From IMG/VR virus record IMGVR_UViG_3300018043_000004, positions 1 through 25,192 of that record: a stretch of 25,192 nucleotides of DNA. One strand, written 5' to 3'. Source of the stretch: a virus. The notes below the pieces were generated by a model. That model did not search any database, was not told where the DNA came from, and saw nothing but the letters and a program-made list of their open reading frames with translations. Of this stretch, positions 541 to 25,192 are shown piece after piece; within the stretch, counting starts at the first letter, position 1, and every line of letters begins with the position of its first letter. Both the position numbers and the translations under genes were made by a program.

Positions 541-541
541 T

Positions 542-2158: not shown

Positions 2159-2167
2159 TTAAATCTC

Positions 2168-4341: not shown

Positions 4342-4343
4342 AA

Positions 4344-5081: not shown

Positions 5082-5108
5082 AACTATCCGCCTTTGCTTT
5101 TTACCAAA

Positions 5109-5462
5109 TTACTCAGTATAAATAAAAGCATTCCCAGTATCTAACCTAGGAATTTGTACTCCTCCCCTAACCCAACCAATATGCCCGCTTCTTAAAGTTT
5201 TAAGATCCGCTTCTCCATGAGCTTCCCAGATTGTTTGACCTAGAGCATTTTGAACAATTAGAGTATCCAAAGCATTTAAATAATTAGCAAACTCAATCTG
5301 AGCAACTTTAATATCAACAGATCCTGTAGGAGCAATAGTAGCAGTAAAACCATTCCCTCCAATATTATCAGTAGCCTTCTTCCCCCCCAAAGGCTGATCT
5401 GGTAGAATTGATGTAGGAGCATCAGCAGAATTTATAATCCACTGTCTTGAACCAATAGTCAT
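5109..5462 (-). CDS. Small beta-rich structural protein, unknown
   Basis: This 117-aa protein begins MTIGSRQWIINSADAPTSI and has a beta-rich core ending in NALGQTIWEAHGEAD, then HIGWVRGGVQIPRLDTGNAF and IYTE. The segment G-x-x-I-W-E-A followed by G-W-V-x-G and a final hydrophobic strand resembles a small beta-sandwich seen in phage structural cassettes. I do not recognise a named family. AGGAGAGCTT precedes the ATG. It lies between the adaptor-like and 122-aa proteins, with gaps of 27 and 9 nt, so a minor tail or neck role is likely by position. Confidence 0.7.
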   Translation of the reverse strand: MTIGSRQWIINSADAPTSILPDQPLGGKKATDNIGGNGFTATIAPTGSVDIKVAQIEFANYLNALDTLIVQNALGQTIWEAHGEADLKTLRSGHIGWVRGGVQIPRLDTGNAFIYTE

Positions 5463-5471
5463 AAGCTCTCC

Positions 5472-5840
5472 TTAGAAAACAAAAATAACAAAAGCCACGC
5501 CACTTGTGGCAGTTACTTTAATCTGTGTTGATGTGTAAGCTGCACTTCTCCAAACATCCCCTGTTGCTCTTTTATCCACAACAAACCAACCAGTAGGTAT
5601 TCTCATTAACTGATGCACTAAAGTTTGCTGTGAACCAGTTCCTGTAAAAGATATAAACTGACCATTTATATTACCTTGACTCGGCGCACCGCTTGTATTT
5701 GCACCGCCTAAGCTAATATTACTATTAAAAGCTTGTGCAAGTAATCTCCAGTTTTCTCTAATCTTATTAATAACAAATTTAATATTAGGATCTTTAACAT
5801 CAGCAGTTTTAATACCTACAAGATCAACAGGAATATTCAT
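5472..5840 (-). CDS. Small tail-associated protein
   Basis: This 122-aa protein has an N-terminal helix (FVINKIRENWRLLAQAFNSN, about residues 22-41) followed by a Gly/Asn/Ser linker. The C-terminal beta domain contains HQLMRIPTGWFVVDKRATG and DVWRSAAYTSTQIKVTATSG, ending FVIFVF. The arrangement H-x-L-x-R-x-P-T-G-W-x-V-V-D, then an exposed Trp-Arg, then strands and an aromatic terminus is a recurrent small module in phage tail and fibre proteins. The helix may serve as an oligomerisation stalk. The ATG follows the stop of the 582-aa gene by two bases. The exact role is unknown; a tail appendage or adaptor is inferred. Confidence 0.7.
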   Translation of the reverse strand: MNIPVDLVGIKTADVKDPNIKFVINKIRENWRLLAQAFNSNISLGGANTSGAPSQGNINGQFISFTGTGSQQTLVHQLMRIPTGWFVVDKRATGDVWRSAAYTSTQIKVTATSGVAFVIFVF

Positions 5841-5842
5841 GA

Positions 5843-7591
5843 TTAAGTACCAAAGTTTGGATTTTTATATTCACTATTAAGTTCATAGATAAAAGCAATT
5901 TCATAAATCTTAATAATATTACTATTCCCATCTACATTAAAAGTAATAGTATACTGAAATTGCAGCCCAGAAAATCCAGCAGTAGAACCTGATGTTGAAC
6001 TGCCATTAATATTAGGCCCTTCTATTGGAATTACAGTTTCACATATTTGGCTAGTATTAAAGGTCCCATTAGGCTCAGATAAAATAAGATTTACAGTTTC
6101 AGCAGTTTCTCCTCTTTCATTTGTCAAAGAAAAACCAAGATTAACATTACCAAGCTCTCCCGAAGTAACCCAGTCATTATAACCATAAGTAATTCTGATT
6201 CTATCAATTCTCTTATTGTGTTTTCTATCTTGAAATACTAAGTTTCCTGAAACATAAGCAGGAGATTCACATTCTGTTGAAGGTAAAGAAGTTCCAGCTC
6301 CTGTTCCTAGTTGCCCAATTAAACCATTAATATCACCAACTAACAAACCATCAGGATAAGAAAATGCAGTAGGTACTATCTCACCCATAATAACAGGATA
6401 AAAAACAGTAGGAGTACCGCTTGCGGAAAAATCAGGAAAACTATACTTTGTCCAATTTTGCTCATAAAAATTAAAACACCAAGCGTTAAACTTAAGGTTA
6501 GAATCTCCACAAAATAACCAATATGCTTTGTAAGCTTGGCCAAGAGCTAAGTTACTTGTAATAAAGCCAAATATAATAGACCCTGCTAAACTACTTAAAC
6601 CAGAAGTTAAATCAGCATAAATAGCATCTCTAGCCCCTATTCTACTCCTTCCATCACTACTTGGAAAATCACCAATAGGAGTAAAAATGCTACCATTAAA
6701 ATCCCAAATATTCTCATCTCCTACATAAACCATTTCCTCTTCACCATAAACAGCAAGTGATTTAGGAAATCTAGTACCCTTTCCTTTGTCTCCAAAAGCA
6801 TCATAGCTAAAAGGAGCTAAGCCATTTCCTGTAGGAGACATTTGTGTATAACCACCATGGCGAAGAATATAGATATTGCCATATATCTTCCCCATACCCA
6901 TTATTGGCCCAAGACTATCTGCAAGATTTGTCGCTGTAGTCCCTGGAATTGAAGTACCAGTCCCCCAAGAAGTAGGATCACCTGGTAATGAAGTCATTAC
7001 CATTTGTGGAAAAGGACCACCAGAGATTCCTGCTCCAGTAGCACTTGATACATTTGCTGCTATGCAATAGCTATTAAGCTCCTGTAAGTAAAAAGCACTT
7101 GGCGCTGTAGCACTTGCAGGCTGATAATCATGTCCAGTATTTCCATCCCAAGTCCAAATAACATCAGCACCTTGACAAAAACAAAGTAGTCCATTTACTA
7201 CAGTCCAAGAAAGTAAATTACCAGAGTTAGTAATACTTCCTGTAGAAGGAGTTAATGCAGTCCAGGCTATGGGATTTAATGAAGAAGCATAATACAATTT
7301 ACCACCTTGAATAACATTTTCATGCTGACCACCAATAGCATCAAACCAAGCAGCTATCATTTGTAAATAAGAGTTAGAACCCAAAGTAGCTCCAGTAGCA
7401 GCTACTTGTGTCAAAGCAGGTCTTGTTGTTAAACCTGCTTTATTAAACAGTATATTTCTAACATCATAAAATCCACTTTGTTCAGCCAAATCAGGAGCTA
7501 CTTGAGATAATATTCCACCAAAAGGTCCTCTTATAACAAGTTCAGGACTCTCATCTTCAAGCCTTGTAAGCTGTGCTTGTCTGTTTGGCAT
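5843..7591 (-). CDS. Tail nozzle / DNA-stabilisation-like protein
   Basis: This 582-aa beta-rich protein has no obvious signal peptide. The N-terminus contains RGPFGGILSQVAPDLAEQSG and YDVRNILFNKAGLTTRPALT, resembling the start of podoviral nozzle or packaged-DNA stabilisation proteins (P22 gp10-like, T7 gp12-like), where an early G-G motif and an N-x-x-x-x-x-x-G-x-x-x-R-P segment precede a beta-propeller. Many short strand-turn units follow, for example VYGEEEMVYVGDENIWDF and FTPIGDFPSSDGRSRIGA, as expected for propeller blades. The C-terminal third is another beta domain. Its position next to the adaptor-like protein agrees. Family membership is inferred from pattern and context; a solvent-exposed tail protein of another kind cannot be excluded. 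Confidence 0.55.
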   Translation of the reverse strand: MPNRQAQLTRLEDESPELVIRGPFGGILSQVAPDLAEQSGFYDVRNILFNKAGLTTRPALTQVAATGATLGSNSYLQMIAAWFDAIGGQHENVIQGGKLYYASSLNPIAWTALTPSTGSITNSGNLLSWTVVNGLLCFCQGADVIWTWDGNTGHDYQPASATAPSAFYLQELNSYCIAANVSSATGAGISGGPFPQMVMTSLPGDPTSWGTGTSIPGTTATNLADSLGPIMGMGKIYGNIYILRHGGYTQMSPTGNGLAPFSYDAFGDKGKGTRFPKSLAVYGEEEMVYVGDENIWDFNGSIFTPIGDFPSSDGRSRIGARDAIYADLTSGLSSLAGSIIFGFITSNLALGQAYKAYWLFCGDSNLKFNAWCFNFYEQNWTKYSFPDFSASGTPTVFYPVIMGEIVPTAFSYPDGLLVGDINGLIGQLGTGAGTSLPSTECESPAYVSGNLVFQDRKHNKRIDRIRITYGYNDWVTSGELGNVNLGFSLTNERGETAETVNLILSEPNGTFNTSQICETVIPIEGPNINGSSTSGSTAGFSGLQFQYTITFNVDGNSNIIKIYEIAFIYELNSEYKNPNFGT

Positions 7592-7597
7592 AAAAAG

Positions 7598-7846
7598 TTA
7601 ATTCAAATACTCAGCTTCTGCTTTCTTCCAAGCCTCAATAAATTGTTTCTTATCATTTTCTGTAGCTTCACGAAGACCAGGTAAAATCATATGATCTAAA
7701 AAATCTTCGGCTTTAGGCATAGGTTTATTATTCAATATAGCATCTTCTCTAACCTGAGCATAAAAATCTCTCAAATTCATCTCAGTAATAGGCTCTGCCG
7801 GGTTTTGATTTAAAACCTCTTCCAATCTTTCTTTTGTAAATTCCAT
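7598..7846 (-). CDS. Small acidic helical protein coupled to ATP-grasp gene
   Basis: This 82-aa protein has no recognised domain. It is acidic and predicted helical (FTKERLEEVLNQNP, then MNLRDFYAQVREDAILNNKP, then a C-terminal helix KKQFIEAWKKAEAEYLN). Its ATG overlaps the stop of the ATP-grasp gene by one base (TAATG), so the two are probably translated together. Six bases separate it from the nozzle-like gene. It could be a virion protein, an assembly factor, or a partner or substrate of the ATP-grasp enzyme. Nothing in the sequence decides between these. Confidence 0.7.
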   Translation of the reverse strand: MEFTKERLEEVLNQNPAEPITEMNLRDFYAQVREDAILNNKPMPKAEDFLDHMILPGLREATENDKKQFIEAWKKAEAEYLN

Positions 7847-9147
7847 TAAAGTTCCAAGCTCCTTTTAATCTGTCCAAATCTTTTTTTAAAAACTTGCCCA
7901 AGATCAGTTCTATATTGCAAATCAGGCACTCTAATCTTCTCAGCTTGCTTTACACAATCATCCATTGTAGCTTCAATTGTTGCCCCACTTGCCATTGCAA
8001 TGCCTATCATGCCATAACTTGCACTTGTTACAATTTCTTCTTGGTCATTTAATTTCAAATTATAAGGATAAAAACTCGGCGAAACTAATTTCTTAGCACT
8101 CAGCCCAGTAGGAATATCTCCTGTATTTATAGAATCTTCAAAAGGCCAAGGGCTAATACTAAGTTTTAAACCTCCACCATATCTTCCATCTTGAAAATAA
8201 GCTCCTTCTTCTCTAACTTGCCCCTTTGCTCCATCAGCCAAGAAAGCACCAAGCTCTCCTGAGAGAATTGTCGACAATAAAGTAGGTGTCGCATCATATC
8301 CAAATCTAGGGGTAAATTCGAGAGCATAAATACTGCCACTTTTACTGTTTGTACTTCCTTGTCCTTCTTTGGCGATGATGGCATTGACATCTAGGCATCC
8401 TGTGTATTCGTTTTCTTTGCAAAACTTGAACATCTTTTCAATAGTCTGCTGTGTCAAAACTGTGCTATCTGTAGTCCAAACAACATTTCCAGAACACCCA
8501 CCACTTGGACCAAGATCATCATTCATTAAATGCTTAGTCTCAAGAGTATGATTTCCTGGAAATATTGGCTGTCCTTTGCTAAACCAAACTTCTGTTGAAA
8601 TATCAATTCCCGGAATAAATTCCTGTAAAACAAACTCCACATTCCCAGTCACCAGCTTTTTATAATGCTCAAACATCTTAATAAGACTTTCTGAATCTTT
8701 AGAAACAAAACTAGGAATATTACCCGAATCAGATCCAGAAGGCTTAAATACAAATCTACTATTAGGCTCCTGTTCATTGATAAATGCCTCTGCTTCTTCA
8801 AAGCTATTAAAATTCTTGCTAGGTGGTACTTTGATCTTATATTGTTTCATTATCTCTGATGCAAACTTCCTATCCATTTCTAGTTTATCTGCTAAGAGCG
8901 ATCCGCCCAGAACAGGGATTCCATGACTTCTAAACACATCTGCTATTAAACCAAACCCTGTACAATCACATATTACAATTTCTGGCTCAAACCTACCAAC
9001 CTTGCTGAGGCTATCTATTAAAATCCCCTGTCCAATAGCCTCAGCTTCTGTCCTTCTAGCAAAAAATAAAACATCATTCCCTTCTTCCTGAACTCTGTGT
9101 GCAAGTCCAAAACTATCTCCAGCATCTGAAAGAAAGAGAAATCTCAT
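7846..9147 (-). CDS. PurD-like ATP-grasp ligase
   Basis: This 433-aa protein resembles phosphoribosylamine-glycine ligase (GAR synthetase, PurD) in fold order. It has an N-terminal Rossmann-type part (MRFLFLSDAGDSFGLAHRV) and a segment matching the PurD linker (HGIPVLGGSLLADKLEMDRK, about residues 75-94). The ATP-grasp core has the adenine-side lysine in FVFKPSGSDSGN (K135), a hinge VLQEFIPGIDISTEVWF, a PurD-like HTLETKHLMNDDLGPSGG, and the metal site ALEFTPRFG (E277). PurD usually reads E-F-N-x-R-F-G here; the Asn is replaced by Thr. The reaction is probably ATP-driven amide-bond formation, but the substrate is unknown. A purine role looks unlikely because no other purine genes are visible and the gene is embedded between tail genes with stop/start overlaps on both sides. 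Confidence 0.8.
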   Translation of the reverse strand: MRFLFLSDAGDSFGLAHRVQEEGNDVLFFARRTEAEAIGQGILIDSLSKVGRFEPEIVICDCTGFGLIADVFRSHGIPVLGGSLLADKLEMDRKFASEIMKQYKIKVPPSKNFNSFEEAEAFINEQEPNSRFVFKPSGSDSGNIPSFVSKDSESLIKMFEHYKKLVTGNVEFVLQEFIPGIDISTEVWFSKGQPIFPGNHTLETKHLMNDDLGPSGGCSGNVVWTTDSTVLTQQTIEKMFKFCKENEYTGCLDVNAIIAKEGQGSTNSKSGSIYALEFTPRFGYDATPTLLSTILSGELGAFLADGAKGQVREEGAYFQDGRYGGGLKLSISPWPFEDSINTGDIPTGLSAKKLVSPSFYPYNLKLNDQEEIVTSASYGMIGIAMASGATIEATMDDCVKQAEKIRVPDLQYRTDLGQVFKKRFGQIKRSLEL

Positions 9148-9320
9148 ATCTTTTTCTCACCTATCATTCTCCCAATATATCCTACAGCAAGTACCACAAG
9201 TGTCTTAAGAGTTTCAGTAGCCTCACCAGGCTTTGCAAATCTCGTCAAAGCCCAAAGAGAAACTAAGAAAATAGTAAGCAGAATTAAAAGATCAAACTTA
9301 TCCTCTAAAAATTGCTGCAT
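9144..9320 (-). CDS. 58-aa membrane protein, holin-like
   Basis: A short gene fills the gap before the ATP-grasp gene and overlaps its start by 4 nt (ATGA). The translation has an acidic N-terminus (MQQFLEDKFD), a first hydrophobic segment (LLILLTIFLVSLWALTRF, about residues 11-28), a short polar loop (AKPGEATE), a second hydrophobic segment (LKTLVVLAVGYIGRMIG) and a basic tail GEKKI. Two membrane spans with a charged tail in under 60 residues is a typical small holin layout, and the XhlA-like gene is immediately upstream. AGGAA lies about 12 nt before the ATG. A holin role is inferred; no endolysin gene is visible in this window. Confidence 0.65.
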   Translation of the reverse strand: MQQFLEDKFDLLILLTIFLVSLWALTRFAKPGEATETLKTLVVLAVGYIGRMIGEKKI

Positions 9321-9330
9321 AGTCTAATTC

Positions 9331-9558
9331 CTATTTCCTAACCATCCCCATAATTCCTTCAATTGCAGCAAAGAGAAAGAGGATAAAAGCAATAATTCCC
9401 ATTGCTCTGTTTTGGAAACTTGTTAAATCTTCTATCTTGTCAATAACTGCTTTCTGTCCTACTTTTAAATCCTCTAGTGAAGATTCTGTATTTTCTTTCA
9501 TATTGTAAAAATTAGCCTCCAGTACACTAATCCTAGTCTCGAAATTACTCTCAGCCAT
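9331..9558 (-). CDS. XhlA-like coiled-coil membrane protein
   Basis: This 75-aa protein has an N-terminal coiled coil (FETRISVLEANFYNMKENTE and SSLEDLKVGQKAVIDKIEDL) followed by a single C-terminal membrane span (AMGIIAFILFLFAAIEGIMGMV) and a basic end. This is the layout of haemolysin XhlA-family proteins (about 70-90 aa), which associate with holins in phage lysis cassettes. It is followed 10 nt later by the 58-aa two-span protein, which strengthens a lysis or membrane interpretation. The start has a GAGG-containing site about 7 nt upstream. An alternative is a membrane-anchored structural or exclusion protein. Confidence 0.65.
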   Translation of the reverse strand: MAESNFETRISVLEANFYNMKENTESSLEDLKVGQKAVIDKIEDLTSFQNRAMGIIAFILFLFAAIEGIMGMVRK

Positions 9559-9575
9559 AACTTCCTCCGATATTT

Positions 9576-10232
9576 TTAGTTATAGTTGAAGTGAAGATGG
9601 AAACCAATTCCCTGAATTTCAATTGTTCCTGTATTTGCAAGAACAATATCAAGCTCAGCAACAAAGTTTGAAAGATCATCTACATTCATTACTGGAGTTG
9701 TTACTGGGCAAACTTGAACATAAGGCCCAGTGCTAGGTACTGTAAGTGGAAATATTGGGTTTGTTAAAGGATAATTATTTACAACATTCGCTACATTATT
9801 TGCATAAACAATCTCATCCAAAGTCACAGCAACAGAAGTAACAGATACAACACCTGGTTGGTAAATTACAACAAGGTTATCAATCTGAAGTCCTTTGTTT
9901 GGGGGAAAGTTATTTGGAGTAAATTGTGTCTGCCCCTTATAAGGTGGAAAACCTGAAACTCCTACAGGAGCATTTGCCCCACCAAATTCCTCTTGAAAAA
10001 AAGGCCCAACTTCTATAAGCCTTCTAAGCTGAGAAAGACAAGCAACTACCCTAATAGTCGCAGCCCCACTAGCAGTGCCATTAAAACTAAAATCTCCCTC
10101 AGTATTTCTAGTCAAGGCTGGATTAGAACTCCAAGAGCCACTATAAAGCAAAGAAGCATCACAAGCTCCTTTAAAAATCCACCCTCCAGCCTTTGCTGTA
10201 TCCCCTCCCCAATTTGCTGCTGATCTTCCCAT
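9576..10232 (-). CDS. Unknown beta-rich structural protein
   Basis: A frame opens at 10256, but the start chosen is the ATG at 10232 (MGRSAANWGGDTAK). AGGAGG lies 6 nt before that ATG, and the upstream start would overlap the preceding gene. The resulting 218-aa protein is beta-rich, with a Trp/Gly-rich N-terminus (WGGDTAKAGGWIFKGACDAS), a helix ACLSQLRRLIEVGPFFQEEF, a Pro/Asn loop, and a C-terminal domain ending in IEIQGIGFHLHFNYN. I do not recognise a family. It lies between a CxxC-type small protein and the membrane genes, so a capsid-associated or minor structural role is the simplest guess. Confidence 0.65.
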   Translation of the reverse strand: MGRSAANWGGDTAKAGGWIFKGACDASLLYSGSWSSNPALTRNTEGDFSFNGTASGAATIRVVACLSQLRRLIEVGPFFQEEFGGANAPVGVSGFPPYKGQTQFTPNNFPPNKGLQIDNLVVIYQPGVVSVTSVAVTLDEIVYANNVANVVNNYPLTNPIFPLTVPSTGPYVQVCPVTTPVMNVDDLSNFVAELDIVLANTGTIEIQGIGFHLHFNYN

Positions 10233-10245
10233 TGTGTCCTCCTGT

Positions 10246-10509
10246 TTAAAAATCATCCCACATATTATTGTTAGTATCTGCTCTCTTAATAGCAGTCATG
10301 TTTTGAAGCTCAGTTCCTACATCTTCCAGAACTTCTGTTCTAATCACTGGCATGATATAAGAATCTGGGTTATCATAACAGTGCTCAAAACAAAGCAGCA
10401 ATCCATTCTGCATTCCCATTTGAGGTAATCTATAAGGCCAGCCACATCTATCACAGAAAGACCAGGCACTTATATGCTTTCCTGCTCTTGCTGTAATATG
10501 TATTGACAT
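10246..10509 (-). CDS. Zinc-binding-type small phage protein (two CxxC pairs)
   Basis: This 87-aa protein contains SFCDRCGWPYRLPQMGMQNG followed by LLLCFEHCYDNP, giving Cys-X2-Cys-X17-Cys-X2-Cys, a zinc-ribbon-like core. Small proteins starting with a C-D-R-C-G-x-x-Y motif and ending the core with C-x-x-C-x-D-x-P are frequent near capsid genes in tailed phages. The C-terminal part (residues about 50-87) is helical and polar. The ATG has GAGG about 8 nt upstream. Its function is not known. By analogy it may be a minor head protein or assembly factor. Confidence 0.75.
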   Translation of the reverse strand: MSIHITARAGKHISAWSFCDRCGWPYRLPQMGMQNGLLLCFEHCYDNPDSYIMPVIRTEVLEDVGTELQNMTAIKRADTNNNMWDDF

Positions 10510-10535
10510 AAAATTACCTCAATTAACAATGAGAA

Positions 10536-11237
10536 CTAATAACCAATACATACATAAGACCAAGTATCAGAATTAGAAGTACCTGAAACAAAAGTAACTG
10601 CTGTTGCAGAAATAGCCTCTGCTCCTGTTGTATAAGCATGGCCATTGGAATTAGTTGTGCTACAACTATACGAAGTAGCAGAACTAAAAGCCGGCATTCC
10701 TGTAATAGCAAAAGTAGTAGCAGAGCTTACTGTATAAGTACCATAAACTACTTTAAGAGGTTGCCCAAGTGTAGTAGGAGAAGCACAAGAAGAAGAGCTT
10801 CCACAACTAACAAGACCAACAGAATTACCTACTCCTGCACTTGCTCCTGGGATATTACCAACATAAGTAAACGTCACACTTCCAGTTCCACTGAAAGTAA
10901 GAATATTTACTTCCACAAAATTAGAAGCAATGCTCCCAAGATTATAAACCCCAGAAGAAGTACAAGTCTGAGTAGCACCTCCTGTAAGTGCTGTATAAGA
11001 ACCTCCATAAGTAGAAGCACCTTGCAAAGCAACAGTACAAGTACTTACAGTTCCAGTAGCCGTCCAAATCAAAGTATGAGAAGTAATACCAGTCCCAGTT
11101 TGATTCATAATCGGCATTGTCACTGGACCACCTGTTGCAAGAAAAGTCTGGCTTTGCATAACAGGAACAGTTACTTGAGCCCGAGCAAAAGACAAAGAAC
11201 AAAGCAAAACCCCAAAAAACAAAACAAACTTCTTCAT
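10536..11237 (-). CDS. Secreted beta-rich protein with signal peptide, putative receptor/adhesin-like
   Basis: This 233-aa protein starts with a clear signal peptide (MKKFVLFFGVLLCSLSFARA, cleavage probable near residue 20). A beta domain follows at about residues 50-130, with STCTVALQGAS, TQTCTSSGVY and SNFVEVNILTFSGTGSVTF. The C-terminal domain has VVYGTYTVSSATTFAITGMP and ends NSDTWSYVCIGY, resembling trimeric fibre tips. The first domain is also present in the fibre gene at 20004-21326 (shared C-T-V-A, Q-T-C-T-S-x-G and N-F-V-x-x-N positions). A Sec signal on a head-cluster gene is odd: it may be exported to the host envelope or be a virion surface protein with a cleaved leader. AAGGAG lies 8 nt before the ATG. 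Confidence 0.75.
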   Translation of the reverse strand: MKKFVLFFGVLLCSLSFARAQVTVPVMQSQTFLATGGPVTMPIMNQTGTGITSHTLIWTATGTVSTCTVALQGASTYGGSYTALTGGATQTCTSSGVYNLGSIASNFVEVNILTFSGTGSVTFTYVGNIPGASAGVGNSVGLVSCGSSSSCASPTTLGQPLKVVYGTYTVSSATTFAITGMPAFSSATSYSCSTTNSNGHAYTTGAEAISATAVTFVSGTSNSDTWSYVCIGY

Positions 11238-11255
11238 ATGTCTTCTCCTTTTAAA

Positions 11256-11345
11256 TTAATTTAAACAATGCTCACAACCAATTCCTGGACCTTCTTTACT
11301 TTGTAAAAGACAAACAAAGTAAACAGCCTCATTTGGAATTGTCAT
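11256..11345 (-). CDS. Possible 29-aa Cys-containing peptide
   Basis: A short frame in the gap between the capsid gene and the secreted protein gene reads MTIPNEAVYFVCLLQSKEGP then GIGCEHCLN. Three Cys and one His (C-X11-C-X2-H-C) could bind metal, and the frame fills the gap well. No convincing ribosome site precedes its ATG, and the peptide is very short, so this may be chance. Confidence 0.35.
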   Translation of the reverse strand: MTIPNEAVYFVCLLQSKEGPGIGCEHCLN

Positions 11346-11373
11346 AATAGTTTTGACTTTAAGAGCAAGCAAA

Positions 11374-12339
11374 CTAAGGAGCATTCGTTGCCCAAGTTCC
11401 CACCCAAGAAGTTGCACCAAATACAAACCTCATAATAGCCAGTTCCTTTACACTCTGAGTATCAAAATCATCAGCAGCAGCAGTCTTGAGTTTCATTCTC
11501 TCAACATACTTCAATTGGTGACTAGATTTCTCAGGCAACAAGAACCAAGCACTCTGACTTGTTAAATACTGCCAAGTCATAAAATTAAGCCCATCACCTA
11601 GCAAGGCATTAATTTCATTATCAGTTGTATAAGGTTTATTACCAGAACCAAGAATCTCACGAGCAATCCAAGTCAATTCTGGTGGAATAAGCAAAGTCTT
11701 CGGTCGAATTTCCCAAGGAAGTCCTGAAGAAGTAATACCACGATTATATTGGTTCAAAGCAAGCTGCAAAGCACTTACAGACAAATCCACATCAGTAGCA
11801 GGGCGATTAGGATATGTTCCTGCAAGTGAAATAACATTACTAACCCCAGGCCCAAGATTGGTAGCAGCAACACCACCAAGCAAAGGATGCTGGTTATTAA
11901 ACAAAGAAACTCCATCAGTAGTAGTTACTGAAGTAGTAAAGCCAAGATTGAAGATATTAGCTGCCTGCATTTCTACAGTAAACATAGCAGCCCTAGCAAG
12001 TGCTTTAGGCATCTTTTTGATAATATCATAACACTCATCATCAAAAAGCTCAAAGCTTGCTCTCATAGCCAAGGCATAGGTAAGGGGCAAATAACGCTTA
12101 GACCCACCTTCTACGATAGTAGTATAACCTACCGAAGTCCCCTCATCCTTCAAAGCCAAAGCACCAATATCCCCATACTCTGCCTCATCTTCAAAGAACC
12201 TATCTGACTTCTCTTCATTAAAAATATGCTGCCACTTACTAGCCCGCATAGCCAGGTTTAAGAAATGTACAAAGACATGCTTAAGCCCTGGGGCCATGCT
12301 AAGAGCATACTGTTCTCTTACCATTGTTCCTGTAGGCAT
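11374..12339 (-). CDS. Major capsid protein (Mu gpT-like / HK97 fold)
   Basis: This 321-aa protein matches the pattern of Mu-type major head proteins. It has an N-terminal helical arm (MAPGLKHVFVHFLNLAMRAS), a segment rising to KRYLPLTYALAMRASFELFD, the phrase VSLFNNQHPLLGG (about residues 145-157), then DLSVSALQLALNQYNRGITS, EIRPKTLLIPPELTWIAREI and NEINALLGDGLNF, ending SAWFLLPEKSS. The run F-N-x-x-H-P-L, L-S-x-x-A-L and L-L-I-P-P-E-L is characteristic. The position after scaffold and decoration genes agrees. AGGAG lies 8 nt before the ATG. The length is usual for an HK97-fold capsid protein with no added domain. Confidence 0.85.
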   Translation of the reverse strand: MPTGTMVREQYALSMAPGLKHVFVHFLNLAMRASKWQHIFNEEKSDRFFEDEAEYGDIGALALKDEGTSVGYTTIVEGGSKRYLPLTYALAMRASFELFDDECYDIIKKMPKALARAAMFTVEMQAANIFNLGFTTSVTTTDGVSLFNNQHPLLGGVAATNLGPGVSNVISLAGTYPNRPATDVDLSVSALQLALNQYNRGITSSGLPWEIRPKTLLIPPELTWIAREILGSGNKPYTTDNEINALLGDGLNFMTWQYLTSQSAWFLLPEKSSHQLKYVERMKLKTAAADDFDTQSVKELAIMRFVFGATSWVGTWATNAP

Positions 12340-12392
12340 TCTTTTTTCTCCTTTTCAAATTTAAAAACACAAAATAAAAGCCTAACAAACAA

Positions 12393-12968
12393 CTAAGCAA
12401 TTCCCTGCTGTGAAGCCGGCAGAACGGTGAAATAAACCCCACGAGCATCTGAGGCAGTTGTGTTAACATTAGCGTCAATATTAACAATCTTAACCACAGC
12501 AGAAGCTCCTGTTTTTGTCTTATCCACATACCAATGACCATCAGTGTCAATAGACATGCCATAAGCCAAACCAATATCAGTTTGTGCAGCAGTCTGACTT
12601 GGTCCTACTTCACCAAAGAAAACAGTATCATTATTTGCAACTTCTACTGAAATCTTTCCATCTTGAACAGGAGCACCTACTGGGATCTTTACTGCACTAG
12701 CCTCATTAGGAACCCCACCAGGAATTGTAAGAGTTTGTGCAGTGCCTTTGGTTGTTAAATTATTCCCAGCGGGCAATACAAATCCTTCAATTCCAGCAGC
12801 AACAGTAGCTCCATCCCAAGCAATCAAATAACCAGCATTTGCTCCAGCAGTAGCAACTTCTACTGGAGTACCAGCTTTAAAAGTATTGCCTGCTCCTTCA
12901 AGAAGCCTTGCAATAACTGGCTGATGCTGGCTTGTAGAAAACCAACTGTGAATTTCGACACTAGCCAT
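12393..12968 (-). CDS. Probable capsid decoration protein
   Basis: This 191-aa beta-rich protein opens MASVEIHSWFSTSQHQPVIA and contains GAGNTFKAGTPVEVATAG and GYLIAWDGATVAAGIEGFVL, then Gly/Thr/Val-rich strands, ending in a domain with DARGVYFTVLPASQQGIA. The middle pattern (hydrophobic strand, G-x-P-V, then A-x-D-G) resembles head-decoration proteins that sit beside the capsid gene. It lies immediately upstream of the major capsid gene, with AGGAG 9 nt before the ATG. The family is not certain. A minor capsid protein or head fibre base is the alternative. Confidence 0.65.
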   Translation of the reverse strand: MASVEIHSWFSTSQHQPVIARLLEGAGNTFKAGTPVEVATAGANAGYLIAWDGATVAAGIEGFVLPAGNNLTTKGTAQTLTIPGGVPNEASAVKIPVGAPVQDGKISVEVANNDTVFFGEVGPSQTAAQTDIGLAYGMSIDTDGHWYVDKTKTGASAVVKIVNIDANVNTTASDARGVYFTVLPASQQGIA

Positions 12969-13007
12969 GTTTATATTCTCCTTTTTAAATTAACTACTAA
13001 ACAACAA

Positions 13008-13760
13008 CTACAAACCAGCTCTCTTAGACTCATCAAGATCAGGGAGATATGAAGTAAGTCCTTTATTGACATTCATAGCAATACTCATATGACTCTCTCC
13101 CCTCTTTGTCTCTCCTTCAATTGGAGTATCAATCTTAGGATCAGAATGAATTTCCTTTCCAGTAATAGCATCTTTCCCAACAAGAGTATTTGTCAAAGAA
13201 TCCTTAGCAACTGCATTCTGTCTTTGCAAACGAGCTTGTGGAGAAACAGCAGCAAAGGCTCTTTGGTCTTTTGCTTTAAGAGCAGCAGCATAAAGCTCCT
13301 TTGGAATCACCATTAAAACAAGCTCTCCCCAATAAAAATGCCCATCTTTTGAAGAAAGCCCTGCGACTTCTACATCATCTACTGTAGCAAGCCTTGCTCC
13401 AATTCCCTTACCTTCCCAAAATCTAACACCTACTCCAATACCCTCACTCTTGTTATGCACCCATCTTGCCATAAAAGCAGGGTTCTTACAAGTAACCTTC
13501 TCCACAGATAATTGCTCCATTGGAATGGCAACAATTGGATCTGACAAAGACCCTTCATAATCCTGTGAAAAGGGCCTTGGCTTTCTTGGTTGCTGACCGT
13601 GTTCTGAAAGAATCTGTGCAATCTGTTCCTCACTAAGCTTCGGCCTAGTATTCTGTGTAGTCATCACCGGAGATTCATTTGTTGCCATTTTGCTATCACT
13701 TCCTTCTTGTGTTTTATTTACTTCAATTTTCTGTGTTTGGTTATTGATTCCTTTTAGCAT
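13008..13760 (-). CDS. Conserved phage head-cluster protein, function unknown
   Basis: This 250-aa protein starts at the ATG at 13760 (AGGAAG about 7 nt upstream, overlapping the preceding stop), although an internal ATG at 13688 with GGAAG is also possible. The N-terminal 70 residues are polar and disordered (KLSEEQIAQILSEHGQQPRK). The core at about residues 85-165 has NPAFMARWVHNKSEGIGVGV, VDDVEVAGLSSKDGHFYWGE and LVLMVIPKELYAAALKAKDQ. Proteins with a core of this kind (R-W-V-x-N, then D-G-x-x-x-W/Y-G-x-L-V-L-M) recur between scaffold and capsid genes in podoviruses. The C-terminal third is polar. It may be a scaffold partner or minor head protein. Confidence 0.7.
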   Translation of the reverse strand: MLKGINNQTQKIEVNKTQEGSDSKMATNESPVMTTQNTRPKLSEEQIAQILSEHGQQPRKPRPFSQDYEGSLSDPIVAIPMEQLSVEKVTCKNPAFMARWVHNKSEGIGVGVRFWEGKGIGARLATVDDVEVAGLSSKDGHFYWGELVLMVIPKELYAAALKAKDQRAFAAVSPQARLQRQNAVAKDSLTNTLVGKDAITGKEIHSDPKIDTPIEGETKRGESHMSIAMNVNKGLTSYLPDLDESKRAGL

Positions 13761-13768
13761 AAAGCTTC

Positions 13769-14497
13769 CTAAGCAGTAGCAGCAGCAATGTATTCTTCTT
13801 CACTCATTCCAAACTTAGCAGCAGCTTCTTTCTGATCTTGAGTAAGCTGAATCTTTGCATTGCCTCTGCCATCATTGGCATTTCCACCAGCAGAACTCCC
13901 CACTTCCAAGCTACCCTTTTCCTTATTAATATGAGCAGCAAGCTTCTTTAAATTCCTCCCCATAACAAGCTCTACAGCTGTAGGATACATAGAAGCATTC
14001 AATCTCTGTTCTACAGTCAGAGTTTTAAACATAGCTTCACACTCATCATGCAAAACATCATAAGCAATCCTGAGATCAGGATTATTCCTAATTTGTTCCA
14101 TCCCATCTCTTAGAGCAGAATTTCCTTGAGTCATTAAGGTTGCTGTGATAATAGGACGAAGCTTCTCATTTACCCTATCCTGCAACCAAGCTTCATGGTC
14201 TTCAAGAATACTTGGGCGCTTTGGTTTGCCTTCATCTTCATTGTTATTACTAGACCCTGCCGACCTTGCAGTTTTCAATTCATTAAAGCCAACTTCTAAA
14301 TTACTCAATGTAGAAGTTACCTTTTCTAAGTTAGTCTGCAATGTAGTATTCTGACTTTCAAGAACACTAAACTTCGGTTCAAGCTCGGCAAGTTTTACTC
14401 TTGCAGCTTCTCCATCTTGAATCATCTTTAAAATCTCTTCCCTCGTCTTCCCTTGAAAGATTTCAGGAATATTCCCCACTTCATTCCATCCAGGCAT
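13769..14497 (-). CDS. Scaffolding protein (probable)
   Basis: This 242-aa protein is mostly helical. A coiled-coil region lies at about residues 30-78 (RVKLAELEPKFSVLESQNTT, LEKVTSTLSNLEVGFNELKT), followed by a charged disordered linker (SSNNNEDEGKPKRP), a helical mid-domain (EAWLQDRVNEKLRPIITATL), and a C-terminal tail with QLTQDQKEAAAKFGMSEEEY. A tail with 'T-x-x-x-K-x-A-A-x-x-x-G-M-S-x-E-E-Y' is common in phage scaffolding proteins. It sits between portal and capsid genes, as scaffolds do. AGGAG lies 7 nt before the ATG. No protease domain is visible. Confidence 0.65.
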   Translation of the reverse strand: MPGWNEVGNIPEIFQGKTREEILKMIQDGEAARVKLAELEPKFSVLESQNTTLQTNLEKVTSTLSNLEVGFNELKTARSAGSSNNNEDEGKPKRPSILEDHEAWLQDRVNEKLRPIITATLMTQGNSALRDGMEQIRNNPDLRIAYDVLHDECEAMFKTLTVEQRLNASMYPTAVELVMGRNLKKLAAHINKEKGSLEVGSSAGGNANDGRGNAKIQLTQDQKEAAAKFGMSEEEYIAAATA

Positions 14498-14531
14498 TGC
14501 TTTTCTCCTATTTTTGGATTACACTTTACTT

Positions 14532-17735: not shown

Positions 17736-19499
17736 CTATCCATATTTCTGCACATGCACCTTGTTTGGAATCTGAACACTCCCAGAAGGCAACCAAGCAA
17801 TCTTGCTATTTACTGAAATAGGCTTATTGATATTCTGCACCAATCTCTGATTCGCTTTATACCACTCACTCATAGTATTAGCATCCACTACTTTATCTAA
17901 GAGATTAGGACAATAAGCAAGAGCATCAAGCAGATCCCAAGTTTTGCTCTTAGGAAAGCTTAAATATTCTGAAAGAAAATCCTGCTGGCTTCTCTGCACA
18001 TAAAAAGAACCTCTTTCAAAAATAGGAGCAAGCATTGATCTTACTCTCCATTCTTTCTTTCTGCTAAGAATCCCATCAGGTCCTTCTACTTCTCCTTTCA
18101 ATTCCTTCACTTTCAAAGGCCAAGTAGCAGATTTATTCAACAACTGCAAAGCATAAGCACAATACTTCTGAGCTGCAATTATCTCAAAACCTACTTCTCT
18201 AACCCTCCACTTCTCTGCCATTCTATACAAATTGGCATAAAACTTCTCATAAGAACATCTCTCTGCAAAGTATTCAAGCAAGTAATAATTCGCACTAACT
18301 CCACTTCCTTCCATTCCAAGACAAACAATTGCATGTCTACTCCTGCCATGCCCAGCATTGCCAGAATGGTTAGGGTCAACAGCAATGACAATCCTAAGAG
18401 TTCTACAGTAAATATCCTTTTTAATCTCTCCATTTTTTACTTCAGTCTTTATTATTCTTTTCTTATCCTGATCCTCTCCTAGAGTAAAATAATTTAAGAA
18501 GCATTCTTTGAAGTCCGCGTCCTCAGCAGAAATAGGAGAATTAAGATATTGGCAACTAAAATAGTAATTCCCAAACCTCCTTTTGATCCTATCCAGCTCA
18601 GTAAAATTAAAACGCTCAGGAAAAATAATCCTATCGGCAAGGTGCATATCACAACAACCGCCAATAGCAGAGTGAGTCTCAAAAGAGAATTCAGGTTCTT
18701 GTTCTTTGATGTGTGCATTTAAATCCTGAAAAGACCATCTATTTCCAATAATTAATTCATCATTCTCTTTCCCAGCTTCGTCTTTATCAAAAGCACCTGG
18801 GAGAAGTTTATGATAATCAATTACTTTATCCATTGTAGCTTGCTGTTCAATAGCTGCTTTGCCTACAAGGTCATCTTCTACAATCATGTGATAGTGCCTA
18901 GATTGTAAAGCATTTCCTACACCAAGAAAGTCAAAAGTTCCCTCACCATGAATGCCTCTATCAGAAGACTGTCCTTTGCTAATAGGCAATCTCATTTGTA
19001 AAGACCTAGCATTCCAAGTATCTTGCTTTGTAGGAAGTGTTTCTGGAAACAACATTCTATACATGGCATTCGACATTACATGCTTAGAAATTAAACTGCC
19101 AAGAATCCTAGCATTAGAATCAGTATTTGTGACAAGCAAAATACGAATAAAAGGATTATGCATCAATTGCATAAACCTAATAAACTTGTCTGAATATCCA
19201 AGTTTCAAAAAAGCTTCTTCATCTTGTATTGTAAAAGGCAAAGCTCTCCAGAGGCTATTTCCTTCAGAATGAATTGTAGTCTTGTAATGTCCTCTAGGAT
19301 ACTCAATTACATCTTTAATGTGTTCTCTTTCAAGCCTTTCACACATGTATCTATGCAGAGTATCATTTAGTTTACTTCTTTGAAGCCCGTGTTTTATAAA
19401 GAAATAAAGAGAACCCAAGCAATTGAGTTTTAAAGCCTGTAACTGAGCGCTGTGAGTAGGCTCTTTGCTAGCATCTATTATGTGAAATTTCTCAATCAT
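17736..19499 (-). CDS. terL: Terminase large subunit
   Basis: The 587-aa DNA-packaging motor couples ATP hydrolysis to DNA translocation and cuts the concatemer. ATPase motifs visible are a Walker-A-like VIEYPRGHYKTT (residues about 64-75), a coupling segment ILLVTNTDSNARILGSLI, and a Walker B HMIVEDDLV (about 204-212, with E208-D209-D210). The C-terminal RNase H-like nuclease has the expected acidic residues in VIAVDPN (D375), VGFEI (E439) and LLDALAY (D525). The length is normal. It is the most reliable marker of a tailed phage in this window. The start has no clear ribosome site. It lies downstream of the 151-aa secreted protein gene rather than directly after the small subunit, so extra genes have been inserted between the two terminase genes. 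Confidence 0.9.
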   Translation of the reverse strand: MIEKFHIIDASKEPTHSAQLQALKLNCLGSLYFFIKHGLQRSKLNDTLHRYMCERLEREHIKDVIEYPRGHYKTTIHSEGNSLWRALPFTIQDEEAFLKLGYSDKFIRFMQLMHNPFIRILLVTNTDSNARILGSLISKHVMSNAMYRMLFPETLPTKQDTWNARSLQMRLPISKGQSSDRGIHGEGTFDFLGVGNALQSRHYHMIVEDDLVGKAAIEQQATMDKVIDYHKLLPGAFDKDEAGKENDELIIGNRWSFQDLNAHIKEQEPEFSFETHSAIGGCCDMHLADRIIFPERFNFTELDRIKRRFGNYYFSCQYLNSPISAEDADFKECFLNYFTLGEDQDKKRIIKTEVKNGEIKKDIYCRTLRIVIAVDPNHSGNAGHGRSRHAIVCLGMEGSGVSANYYLLEYFAERCSYEKFYANLYRMAEKWRVREVGFEIIAAQKYCAYALQLLNKSATWPLKVKELKGEVEGPDGILSRKKEWRVRSMLAPIFERGSFYVQRSQQDFLSEYLSFPKSKTWDLLDALAYCPNLLDKVVDANTMSEWYKANQRLVQNINKPISVNSKIAWLPSGSVQIPNKVHVQKYG

Positions 19500-21791: not shown

Positions 21792-22454
21792 CTATGCTAT
21801 TTGCTCTTGCAATTGTTTTGATGTTACATTTACTTCAGTAGGACTCTGCTTTGCAAATTCTTCTTTGCAGCTTTTCAAAGCTTGGTTTAGAACATTTACA
21901 GAAAGATTTACTGTGGTATCATTTGCTTTATCATTCACACTCTGCTCTGTAAAAGTCCTTCGCGGATCGAGTTTTAGAATAGTCCTAGCAGCTTCCATTC
22001 TAGTTTTCAAATCTGCCTTTGGAGATTCAATTGCTTCAAAGAATGTCTTCATAGCCCCCGGCACATGCTGAGTCCAAGCTTCATGCATTGCTTCAATATT
22101 ATCTGTCAAAGTCTCATCTACAATCTTCGCTCTCCTTTTCCTTTCGATCCGCTCTGCTTCTTGATATTCTGCCATGTTATAATACACAGATAAATTCGCT
22201 TGGTTTTTAAAACCAACATAACCAGCTATCTGAGCATCTTTCAAATCAGGTCTGTGTACTCTGAGTTTGGCAATTTCTAAGAGCTTGGATCTTACTTTAG
22301 GAGAGAGATGAAGCAAGAAGTATTCTTCTGGAATAGTAAATGGGCTAGTAGAAGGCAATGTATTAATGCATGGATTTAATACACTGCCTTGCAAACTAGC
22401 CCCAGCCGGCGCGGGTGGAGTTTGAGAAGCAATATTAGCACTTGTTATTTGCAT
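21792..22454 (-). CDS. Terminase small subunit (probable)
   Basis: This 220-aa protein probably binds the packaging site and hands DNA to the large terminase. Residues 1-45 are disordered Pro/Ser/Ala-rich. A helix-turn-helix-like segment follows (LRVHRPDLKDAQIAGYVGFK, then NQANLSVYYNMAEYQEAERI), typical of small terminases. A charged helical middle (IERKRRAKIVDETLTDNIEA) and an amphipathic C-terminal helix with oligomerisation potential (NLSVNVLNQALKSCKEEFAK) complete it. It is the first gene of the minus-strand operon, next to the divergent region, as small terminases often are. Its ribosome site is weak. Similarity is by pattern only. Confidence 0.6.
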   Translation of the reverse strand: MQITSANIASQTPPAPAGASLQGSVLNPCINTLPSTSPFTIPEEYFLLHLSPKVRSKLLEIAKLRVHRPDLKDAQIAGYVGFKNQANLSVYYNMAEYQEAERIERKRRAKIVDETLTDNIEAMHEAWTQHVPGAMKTFFEAIESPKADLKTRMEAARTILKLDPRRTFTEQSVNDKANDTTVNLSVNVLNQALKSCKEEFAKQSPTEVNVTSKQLQEQIA

Positions 22455-23020
22455 AGTCTAGCTTTCATTTTAAAACTGCAAAATTGGCATCCCGCACTTT
22501 TTATGGAGGCGGACCCTTCACCTTTTGGCCGTAAAGCATGGTCTATGACTGGCAGGATTTTCTCTCCTTATATCTCATGTTGCCTTAAGCAACGCCAGCA
22601 ACGCTTTAAGCCACTGAGTATAACTCAAGCTAAACTAAGGTTCTCATAGAACAAAGGGGCTTGTCAAGGTATTTCTTGGGATATGTTTGGGGAATAATAA
22701 GGCTGAGAATTGCATTTCAAGTGCGTACAGGAGGGCATTCTACCCCCTCCCACCCACCTTCCCAACACAAGCCAAACATATTCCATCCTCCTCACTCTGT
22801 TTTATTAAACCCATCTAGCAACAAAACAAGCAAACACAAACAATCCTCCCCTTTTTATGCTTACTCATTTTTTATATTTGCAAAAGTGCAATTTTCTGAA
22901 AAATTTTATAAGGATTCCTCAGCAATTTTATTGCCAAAGTTGGCCTTTTTGGGAGGGTGGTGGTTATTTTACATATTTTTACTTTAAGATGTAAAGCGAA
23001 AGAAAGGCGAAGTAGTAGAG
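22455..23020. other. Divergent noncoding region, left part
   Basis: I see no convincing gene here. The stretch has three visible features. An inverted pair at 22678-22693 and 22779-22794 shares GATATGTTTGG-like arms on opposite strands. A hairpin at 22730-22750 has arms GGAGGG and CCCTCC with a 9-nt loop. From about 22850 the DNA is AT-rich (TTTTTTATATTTGC, AAAATTTTATAAGG), which could be an unwinding element next to the repeats that follow. A minus-strand frame ending over the small-terminase start (about 22460-22560) has two Cys pairs but an in-frame stop and no ATG. Promoters for the two divergent operons probably lie in this region, but none is clear. Confidence 0.5.
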
Positions 23021-23259
23021 ACTAGGACTACACTAGTCCTAGGTCTTTGTTAAGTGATTGAAAACAAAGCTAGGAACATTTGAAGTACTGTGTAAAACAT
23101 TCTTACATAGTACTTGATTGCTAAGTGCTTTGTTATCAATGGGCCTAGGACTATGATGGTCCTAGGATAGTATTACTAAGTTGTAACATTGTTATTTACT
23201 ACTAAGTAACAATTACTTAGTAGTAAGTAAGGACTAGGACTAGTTTGGTCCTAGGACTA
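23021..23259. repeat. Iteron-like nested palindrome cluster (5x CTAGGACTA)
   Basis: Five copies of CTAGGACTA occur within 240 bp: 23022-23030, 23145-23153, 23234-23242 and 23251-23259 on the plus strand, and 23034-23042 as the complement. They form three short dyads: 23022-23042 (9-bp arms), 23144-23166 (8-bp arms) and 23234-23254 (7-bp arms). They also form long-range pairs. TAGTCCTAGG at 23034-23043 faces CCTAGGACTA at 23144-23153. Nested inside are 23057-23069 with 23128-23140 (one mismatch) and 23083-23095 with 23103-23115 (13-bp arms, one G-T). Together these make a dyad of about 120 nt. Phage origins and multi-operator regions look like this. Which of the two it is cannot be told from sequence. 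Confidence 0.75.
23196..23226. repeat. Perfect 14-bp inverted repeat
   Basis: TTACTACTAAGTAA at 23196-23209 is followed by CAA and then its exact complement TTACTTAGTAGTAA at 23213-23226. With a 3-nt loop this is a strong cruciform or hairpin, lying between the second and third CTAGGAC dyads. No T-run follows, so it is not a typical terminator. A protein-binding dyad or origin hairpin is more likely. Confidence 0.8.
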
Positions 23260-23289
23260 TTATTAAGTCATTGATTCTAAAAGACTTAC

Positions 23290-23830
23290 CCTTGTGTGTG
23301 CTTTGGCCAGTATATTGCTCTATTATTGGTGTACCCGGATCGTAACAAGTGCAAAGCACAAAAACAATCTGGAGTACAGCCTGCACTTTGCAGGCACCAA
23401 TGTACGCGCGAGCCGTGAGGCTCTCAACGCCTTTGTAACACTGTTAGTCTGCCAGAATGCCAGACTTGAATGCATGGTATGCTCTGCATATATGGGAGTA
23501 CACAAAGCATGATAGGAATATACTAACTATCTGAGGAGCTAAGTGTGCCTATGGATATATGTAACAGCCTTAGCAGGATTGGACACATATAAACATAGTG
23601 TTTATATGCTTAATTGGTCCTTCGGATAAAGACTCTATGGAGCTATCTAGCTAGCTTCTAACAGAGTACAGGATGTAGAGCATGGTACATAAGATATTGG
23701 TCGCTTGGTTGTCTGACGTACGCAGTCAACAGCTACAGCACACCATCCCTTAGATAATGACCGTTCCTCACAATAAGCCCCTGTACTCTGCTAGCAGCTA
23801 GCTAGGTGTGAATAGCTCTGTTGAGTCTTT
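23290..23830 (+). ncRNA. Large structured RNA candidate (about 540 nt)
   Basis: No convincing gene lies here, but the DNA is full of complementary segments. Local hairpins: 23349-23359 (GTGC-AAA-GCAC), 23379-23395 (GCCTGCA-CTT-TGCAGGC), 23410-23423 (GAGCC-GTGA-GGCTC), 23446-23466, 23478-23490 (TATGC-TCT-GCATA), 23511-23531, 23538-23574 (GCTAAG with CTTAGC) and 23586-23608 (10 bp). A 7-bp helix pairs 23325-23331 with 23395-23401. Four collinear perfect helices then close the 3' part: 23629-23635 with 23823-23829, 23640-23646 with 23812-23818, 23647-23655 with 23797-23805, and 23662-23672 with 23780-23790. The GTGA loop is a GNRA tetraloop only on the plus strand, favouring plus-strand transcription. 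Ends are approximate; no clear promoter is seen. ROOL- or GOLLD-like phage RNAs are the nearest known kind, but membership is not shown. Confidence 0.6.
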
Positions 23831-23858
23831 TATAAACTGTCTTGTTCCTTGTTTTGGA
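23820..23858 (+). repeat. Inverted repeat, left copy
   Basis: This 39-nt segment (GTTGAGTCTTTTATAAACTG at its start) is about 85% identical to the reverse complement of 24385-24424, with five substitutions and one extra T. Its first part contributes the 3' strand of the outermost helix of the RNA candidate. Similarity stops sharply at both ends. Confidence 0.75.
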
Positions 23859-23865
23859 TACAAAA

Positions 23866-23890
23866 GCAAGCTAGCAATGGCTTGCATTTT
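23866..23890. terminator. Possible intrinsic terminator
   Basis: GCAAGC at 23866-23871 pairs with GCTTGC at 23880-23885 across an 8-nt loop, followed by ATTTT. On the other strand the hairpin is followed by a TTTT run, so it may act in both directions. It would end the RNA candidate before the plus-strand genes. The stem is only 6 bp, so strength is uncertain. Confidence 0.4.
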
Positions 23891-23911
23891 CCAACAACAG
23901 GAGATAAGAAT

Positions 23912-24274
23912 ATGGCTACAGCCCCGGCACCAATCAAAAAGGATCCGGCACCAATCACAGAACAGGAACCAATCACACAACAGGGGGCACCACAACAGGA
24001 TCGTTCTCTCAACGCGTTCAACGCGCGCAAGGAAGATATTTCCAAGCTGCGCGCCCAATTCAATCTTGCAATGGATCGCAAGAAAATGCTGAATGACCAT
24101 GACTTCACAGCCAAGGTCATCGAGCAAGGAATGAAGTATTATGCTCGCCAGGTAGAAGTAGCACAGAATGGCTACATCAGCCAAGCTGTGCTAAACGGCG
24201 AAAATCTCAATGATGTTTGCTCCCGCTTGGGCATCACCCCTTTCAGCCGCAAGCCGCTTGACGAAGATCGCTAA
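23912..24274 (+). CDS. 120-aa charged helical protein, unknown
   Basis: The start at 23912 (MATAPAP) is supported by AGGAG about 9 nt upstream; a longer frame exists but has no ribosome site and would enter the hairpin. The N-terminus (residues 1-30) is Pro/Ala/Gln-rich with repeated P-A-P-I and E-P-I-T units. The rest is helical and charged (FNARKEDISKLRAQFNLAMD, RKKMLNDHDFTAKVIEQGMK), ending ENLNDVCSRLGITPFSRKPL. The second helix and its surrounding residues do not match a family I know. Codon use is more GC-rich than in the minus-strand operon. It is the first plus-strand gene after the divergent region, so an early or regulatory role is likely by position. Confidence 0.7.
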   Translation: MATAPAPIKKDPAPITEQEPITQQGAPQQDRSLNAFNARKEDISKLRAQFNLAMDRKKMLNDHDFTAKVIEQGMKYYARQVEVAQNGYISQAVLNGENLNDVCSRLGITPFSRKPLDEDR

Positions 24275-24599: not shown

Positions 24600-24758
24600 A
24601 TGCATTATATCACTTGCCAAGAGTGCGGAAAGCATATCAAGCAATGGCCGCATGAAGAATATTTCAGAACAAATGACGGAAAGATCATTTGTTCTTTCTG
24701 TCAGAGAGAAAAAATACTCAATGTTTCAACAACCACAAGCAACAAAGAAGCTAGCTAA
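24600..24758 (+). CDS. 52-aa zinc-ribbon protein
   Basis: The translation starts MHYITCQECGKHIKQWPHEE and contains KIICSFCQREK. This gives Cys-X2-Cys-X21-Cys-X2-Cys, a zinc ribbon of the size found in small phage regulatory or DNA-binding proteins. The tail is polar (NVSTTTSNKEAS). A weak GGATT site lies about 12 nt upstream. It overlaps the next gene by 38 nt. Confidence 0.65.
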   Translation: MHYITCQECGKHIKQWPHEEYFRTNDGKIICSFCQREKILNVSTTTSNKEAS

Positions 24759-24972
24759 GCAGCCTAGTATGGCTAGTTTTTCACAGCCTGTTTCACAGTG
24801 GAAAACACAGAGGCAAGCGCGGGCAGCTATTACTAATAAGCTGTCTCATAGCTGCCCGCATGGCAAGGTGATTCTCACTGTGAAGCTTGGCATTGAAAGC
24901 ATACAGACTTGTGAGTGCCAAAAGTGCATGTATGTGTCAATGGCTAGTTTAATGGTGAGGATTAAGGGTTAG
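24721..24972 (+). CDS. 83-aa Cys-rich protein, unknown
   Basis: A longer frame begins at 24652, but the ATG at 24721 (MFQQPQATKKLAKQPSMASF) is preferred because it shortens the overlap with the zinc-ribbon gene; 24769 is another option. No strong ribosome site is seen. The protein is basic at its N-terminus and has two motif zones, LSHSCPHGKVILTVKLGIES and IQTCECQKCMYVSM. The Cys-X-His and Cys-X-Cys-X2-Cys residues could bind one zinc. Function is unknown. Confidence 0.5.
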   Translation: MFQQPQATKKLAKQPSMASFSQPVSQWKTQRQARAAITNKLSHSCPHGKVILTVKLGIESIQTCECQKCMYVSMASLMVRIKG

Positions 24973-25192
24973 GGTAGGGATTTCGAGGGTGAGTGGGATA
25001 AGATGGGGATAAGATGGGTGGATTATGTGTGGATTTCGCACAGCAAAATTTACATAGCAGCCTAGGTTGCTGAAAGCAAAGCACTTAGCAATGTGTGCGT
25101 GTGCTAATTTCTCAGAAGCAATTTGGAGGGCCACAGGCCCTTTCAAAGGCAGCCCGCCCCCTAATTTTTAAAAGAAGCAAGTTTTTAAAAAG
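24973..25192. other. Right-edge noncoding stretch with short repeats
   Basis: No gene is supported in these 220 bases. Three features are visible. A tandem 11-mer GGATAAGATGG occurs at 24996-25006 and 25007-25017. CCTAGG recurs at 25061-25066. A hairpin at 25127-25141 has arms AGGGCC and GGCCCT with an ACA loop and a short T-run. Segment 25077-25092 is the reverse complement of 23117-23132. The final 25 bases are AT-rich. Confidence 0.5.

Follow-up and report, generated by a model that had tools for sequence, protein, structure and literature searches.

We analyzed a 25.2-kb viral contig from IMG/VR (IMGVR_UViG_3300018043_000004, positions 1 to 25,192, here called the window) that derives from an uncultivated phage. 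A leftward gene block spans positions 1 to 22454 and carries the large terminase (17736 to 19499; phrog_38), the capsid protein (11374 to 12339), a probable portal, and tail genes. The first leftward gene (21792 to 22454, minus strand), which heads this terminase-bearing block, encodes a protein of 220 aa with no family match. A rightward, early-type block begins with the gene at 23912 to 24274 (plus strand; gene 23912), whose 120-aa product also has no family match. Between these oppositely facing blocks, from 22455 to 23911, we found no convincing gene. This finding includes the segment from 23290 to 23830, for which a sequence-only reading of the window had likewise noted no convincing gene.

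Window positions 1 to 14509 are matched at 100% identity by another contig of this population, which extends beyond the left end of the window. The extension contains genes resembling those for DNA polymerase, primase/helicase, and GroES (the primase assignment came from the analysis, and the polymerase and GroES assignments came from inspection by eye and the similarity of a relative). This contig stops short of the structured region described below. Within the structural gene block of the window, we also observed an ATP-grasp protein (7846 to 9147, minus strand) with a Pfam GARS_A (PurD-like) match, and it has a 30% identical counterpart in a distant relative, IMGVR_UViG_3300033149_004711.

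Extent and folding strength of the structured region

The structured noncoding region, which we propose to be a plus-strand RNA, extends from 22998 to 23910 (about 913 nt). Its folding z-score was -13.4 on the plus strand and -11.2 on the minus strand, and the 5' third alone (22998 to 23272), the strongest part of the region, gave a z-score of about -10 to -12. When the contig was scanned with 300-nt windows, z-scores were lowest at 22951 to 23850. The excess stability over shuffled sequences was -0.108 kcal/nt, versus at most -0.031 kcal/nt in 900-nt windows of the leftward block (about 3.5-fold), and 900-nt windows overlapping the structured region or the early genes showed an intermediate excess. 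In the MFE fold, 73% of the bases were paired, versus 51 to 59% in five 913-nt windows sampled from other parts of the contig, and most helices had pair probabilities of >0.9 in context. Some 300-nt windows in the genes of another phage also reached a z-score of about -6 (with few shuffles); short windows alone are therefore unconvincing, and it is the 900-nt result that is convincing. The folds are single-sequence predictions whose details are unreliable at such a length.

The sequence-only reading had proposed a large structured RNA between 23290 and 23830, with more pairing than chance would produce. The excess of pairing was upheld, with 23285 to 23845 folding at -201.9 kcal/mol, versus -158.7 ± 6.5 kcal/mol for dinucleotide shuffles (z = -6.66), and none of 100 shuffles equaled it. 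Structure is present where it was placed, but those boundaries are too narrow, with the real extent running from about 22998 to 23910. The large structured RNA itself is well supported by single-sequence evidence, namely, extreme z-scores that are unique within the contig and a plus-strand bias of modest size. A second, weaker structured stretch was seen in the early region at 24720 to 25192 (plus strand; z = -3.55), where it reaches the end of the contig, and it holds a 12-bp perfect hairpin, GCGGGCAGCTAT...ATAGCTGCCCGC.

Predicted architecture

All of the following elements are given for the plus strand. In the predicted fold, the 5' half is enclosed by a long-range helix, AAAGGCG/CGCCTTT (23003 to 23009/23428 to 23434), with a pair probability of 0.97 in a 1.1-kb context. 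Within it lies a compact five-way junction (23012 to 23263) that is closed by a stem at 23012 to 23047/23230 to 23263 and has arms at 23055 to 23142, 23144 to 23166, 23167 to 23192, and 23193 to 23229. The last arm is a perfect 17-bp hairpin, and scarcely any unpaired bases separate adjoining arms.

The junction contains three near-identical copies of a 21-nt stem-loop with the consensus CTAGGACTA-nnn-T(A/G)GTCCTAG, while 0 copies are expected in shuffles. The first copy reads CTAGGACTA-CAC-TAGTCCTAG (23022 to 23042). The second reads CTAGGACTA-TGA-TGGTCCTAG (23145 to 23165), with one T-A pair changed to T-G, and the third, CTAGGACTA-GTT-TGGTCCTAG (23234 to 23254), has the same T-G wobble. Thus, the stems are kept while the loops differ, and the wobble in two of the three copies retains an RNA stem but disrupts a DNA palindrome. 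Copies one and three can either fold into local hairpins or, by mutual pairing, make up the closing stem of the junction.

The junction is followed by a four-way junction domain with three hairpins (23294 to 23409; helix pair probabilities of 0.96 to 1.00) and then by the hairpin GAGCC-GTGA-GGCTC (23410 to 23423; pair probability of 0.99). The latter is exactly as first read from the sequence, with GTGA forming a GNRA-type loop. Two small hairpins are predicted at 23446 to 23466 and 23470 to 23510, and the loop of the second, GCATATATG, includes the self-complementary CATATATG.

The 3' half begins with a single irregular arm that is rich in G-U pairs (23528 to 23628; 8 G-U versus 1 A-C). Next to it is a predicted 200-nt arm (23629 to 23829). 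This arm contains four nested perfect helices: AAGACTC/GAGTCTT (7 bp; 23629 to 23635/23823 to 23829), GAGCTAT/ATAGCTC (7 bp; 23640 to 23646/23812 to 23818), CTAGCTAGC/GCTAGCTAG (9 bp; 23647 to 23655/23797 to 23805), and CAGAGTACAGG/CCTGTACTCTG (11 bp; 23662 to 23672/23780 to 23790). These helices, 34 bp in total, had been the core of the initial proposal, and they proved exact, with pair probabilities of 0.97 to 0.99. The inner two were recovered as one inverted repeat of 26 nt with 92% complementarity. An imperfect 16-nt inverted repeat (23273 to 23288/23822 to 23837) could form an alternative outer helix that competes with AAGACTC/GAGTCTT for the same 3' strand, and this helix is absent from the predicted ensemble.

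The terminal hairpin and gene 23912

The last predicted element is a hairpin over the Shine-Dalgarno sequence of gene 23912 (23840 to 23909, plus strand; apical stem at 23866 to 23885 with a GCAA loop). The interval from 23836 to 23911 gave a z-score of -5.5 on the plus strand and is plus-strand biased. The Shine-Dalgarno sequence AGGAG occupies 23899 to 23903, eight bases ahead of the ATG at 23912. As would be expected of a leader, structure covers the ribosome site of gene 23912 in the predicted ensemble, where the Shine-Dalgarno bases are almost fully paired, with the exception of A23902. The RNA had been described as lacking an attached gene, which is doubtful because the structure reaches 23909 and its last hairpin includes this Shine-Dalgarno sequence. 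The same hairpin resembles an intrinsic terminator on the minus strand (23885 to 23866) and, weakly, on the plus strand as well. There was no clear plus-strand terminator, the U-tract past 23885 being merely ATTTTCC, and no convincing sigma-70 promoter was found on the plus strand ahead of the structured region.

Strand of the putative RNA

Pairing that serves an RNA should show G-U rather than A-C oppositions on the transcribed strand. Helices picked by a strand-neutral score had 21 G-U and 6 A-C oppositions. For nested helices, the G-U to A-C ratio was 19:7, versus 299:239 in composition-matched shuffles. Both of these biases are of modest significance. The energy gap between the plus and minus strands for 22998 to 23910 was -38.1 kcal/mol, versus -21.3 ± 6.5 kcal/mol in shuffles (about 2.6 standard deviations). 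For 23275 to 23835 alone, there was no strand energy difference, and both strands folded equally well. The energy gap and the excess of G-U over A-C modestly favor a plus-strand RNA. The plus-strand assignment made from the sequence therefore draws its support from the domains on either side and from the excess of G-U wobbles, but the segment for which it was made shows no strand preference by itself.

Comparison with known RNA families

No Rfam family matched anywhere in the window at its gathering score, and a permissive cmscan of 22800 to 24200 returned only chance-level matches far below the gathering scores (microRNA families and similar). The ROOL covariance model had no match to the contig at an E value of ≤10, and the permissive cmscan gave no ROOL match either; 14 control genomes likewise gave none, so that the direct search was without a positive control. 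The GOLLD model, which represents the conserved 3' region, also had no match at an E value of ≤10 and none in the permissive cmscan. The phi29 packaging RNA, OLE, HEARO, raiA, and group I/II introns resemble the candidate in being large or phage-linked structured RNAs; these, along with riboswitches and ribozymes, were rejected on the negative Rfam result at the gathering score.

ROOL is an octameric RNA cage. Like the candidate, ROOL (RF03087) is large (574-position model), resides in phages and prophages, has a complex fold, and has no known protein partner, while GOLLD (RF02032) shares the 800-nt scale, carriage by phages, and multiple domains. However, the candidate matches neither model, its domain order is not comparable with that of GOLLD, and it adjoins and occludes the ribosome site of a gene. 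ROOL and GOLLD are frequently, although not universally, located near tRNA islands (PMC12286853). ARAGORN found no tRNA gene in the 25-kb window, a partial genome, and the candidate has none nearby. Together with the blank Rfam result and the failure of both models, this leaves the suggestion of a diverged ROOL or GOLLD member unsupported, and the likeness to these RNAs holds for size and phage location but for nothing beyond them.

The three repeated stem-loops, with their 3-nt loops and their position ahead of the early block, recall N4-type hairpin promoters. This candidate was rejected, as the two contigs contain no gene for a giant virion RNA polymerase.

Search for relatives

A blastn search of the region against 50,697 phage and 72,556 plasmid records found nothing similar. 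Searches of IMG/VR with the terminase and gene 23912, and of GTDB with the terminase, yielded no homologue of the structured region. A capsid profile retrieved 80 loci at about 30 to 36% identity, with no RNA match, and a hand-made terminase pattern (PRGHYKTT) retrieved relatives of at best 31% identity, with no RNA homologue. Two RNA sequence patterns also gave no homologue, since the two matches to the first both failed the RNA model, and the repeated stem-loop pattern had 13 matches, about the chance level, without wider similarity. When single-sequence covariance models of two domains were run against 1.1 Mb of related loci, the window alone matched. The phage itself is isolated, with terminase relatives of ≤31% identity and capsid relatives of ≤36% identity outside its own population. 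The terminase of MW202554.1 (9804 to 12341) is annotated as split across two genes, and the insert looks intein-like by eye.

The best relative, IMGVR_UViG_3300033149_004711 (44,604 bp), shares the capsid, portal, terminase, ATP-grasp protein, polymerase, primase, and GroES. Its two ends carry identical sequence, next to a GT microsatellite, and it therefore appears to be circularly complete. The divergent spacer of this relative (44066 to 44604 and 1 to 347, which overlap) shows no unusual degree of structure (z = -1.05 and -0.15). The best reading is that the structured region is specific to the lineage of the window, as far as the searched records go. A mobile element was rejected, as there is no second copy in the contig or its extension.

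Discussion

These roughly 900 noncoding bases are probably a real structured RNA that matches no known family. We give a probability of about 0.5 to the reading that a plus-strand structured RNA heads the early block, acts at least partly in cis on gene 23912, and has a 5' module that serves as a binding platform; we infer its transcription, its actual folding, and every functional step. A promoter lying shortly before about 23000 would drive rightward transcription of 22998 to 23910 (plus strand) into a large multidomain RNA of about 0.9 kb at the head of the rightward block, and this RNA would be either the leader of the block or a product processed from the leader. The 5' module, with its three near-identical stem-loops and tight junction, may bind a protein or further RNA molecules of its own kind. 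The ribosome site would be masked by the last hairpin, and translation of gene 23912 would have to await refolding, binding, or cleavage. HK022 put, lambda nut, and the T7 RNase III sites are examples of 5' leaders whose structure hides a Shine-Dalgarno sequence or binds a phage protein. The candidate shares with them its position at the head of an operon, a stem-loop containing the ribosome site, and repeated stem-loops, but it is far larger. Against this reading stand the lack of a homologue in the searched records, the unstructured spacer of the distant, apparently complete relative, the modest size of the strand bias and its absence from 23275 to 23835, and the lack of a convincing promoter.

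It is unlikely that the region is instead a free-standing "ornate" phage RNA, with its own transcript ending near 23893 and folding into a defined particle (perhaps a homo-oligomer), as ROOL and GOLLD do, while belonging to a different family. Its size, phage location, multidomain fold, and GNRA-type loops are consistent with such an RNA. Two apical loops also have short self-complementary cores (GCATATATG and GTACGCA), and the multimers of ROOL and GOLLD rely on kissing loops and A-minor contacts (PMC12286853). However, short self-complementary loops are frequent by chance, neither a promoter of its own nor a plus-strand terminator is clear, and the structure takes in the Shine-Dalgarno sequence of the next gene in addition to mismatching the ROOL and GOLLD models. 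We equally doubt that the region represents a new class of stand-alone, multidomain phage RNA, about 0.9 kb long and with no sequence relationship to ROOL or GOLLD, that would form a defined particle or RNP during infection.

We regard it as improbable that the pairing acts at the DNA level, with the divergent region holding palindromic operators, an origin of replication, or a cos/pac site for packaging. On this reading, a dimeric DNA-binding protein would recognize the three 21-bp palindromes. These lie between divergent blocks, one of which carries the terminase, at spacings of 123 and 89 bp, and the z-scores are strong on both strands. The lambda cosB R sites and OL/OR are repeated protein sites in phage divergent control or packaging regions, and the candidate resembles such regions in its three repeated sites, its divergent noncoding position, and the nearby terminase genes. 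DNA sites of this type leave the long unique helices and the G-U bias of the candidate unexplained; outside 22998 to 23272, most helices are unique sequence rather than repeats. The strand energy difference and the wobble-preserving manner in which the repeats differ also argue against DNA-level pairing, and an exact DnaA box (TTATNCACA) was not found beyond 22000.

It is very improbable that the region has no present function and is either left over from an inserted element or an artifact of inverted duplication in evolution or assembly: such an origin would agree with the failure to find the region in any relative, with the 16-nt imperfect outer inverted repeat, and with an assembly that rests on one contig because the only other contig of the population misses the region, but no other copy exists in the contig or its extension, no plausible target-site duplication was seen by eye, the architecture is branched rather than a simple hairpin, and the wobbles are biased.

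To our knowledge, very few structured RNAs of such size have been described in phages, and what ROOL and GOLLD do has yet to be established. If the region is a DNA-level control region, it would still be unusually rich in palindromes. If it is a plus-strand RNA heading the early block, it would be a third phage RNA of this size, unrelated to ROOL and GOLLD and located at a gene-block control region over a ribosome site; such RNAs would then gain a concrete regulatory setting, and their function would become testable.
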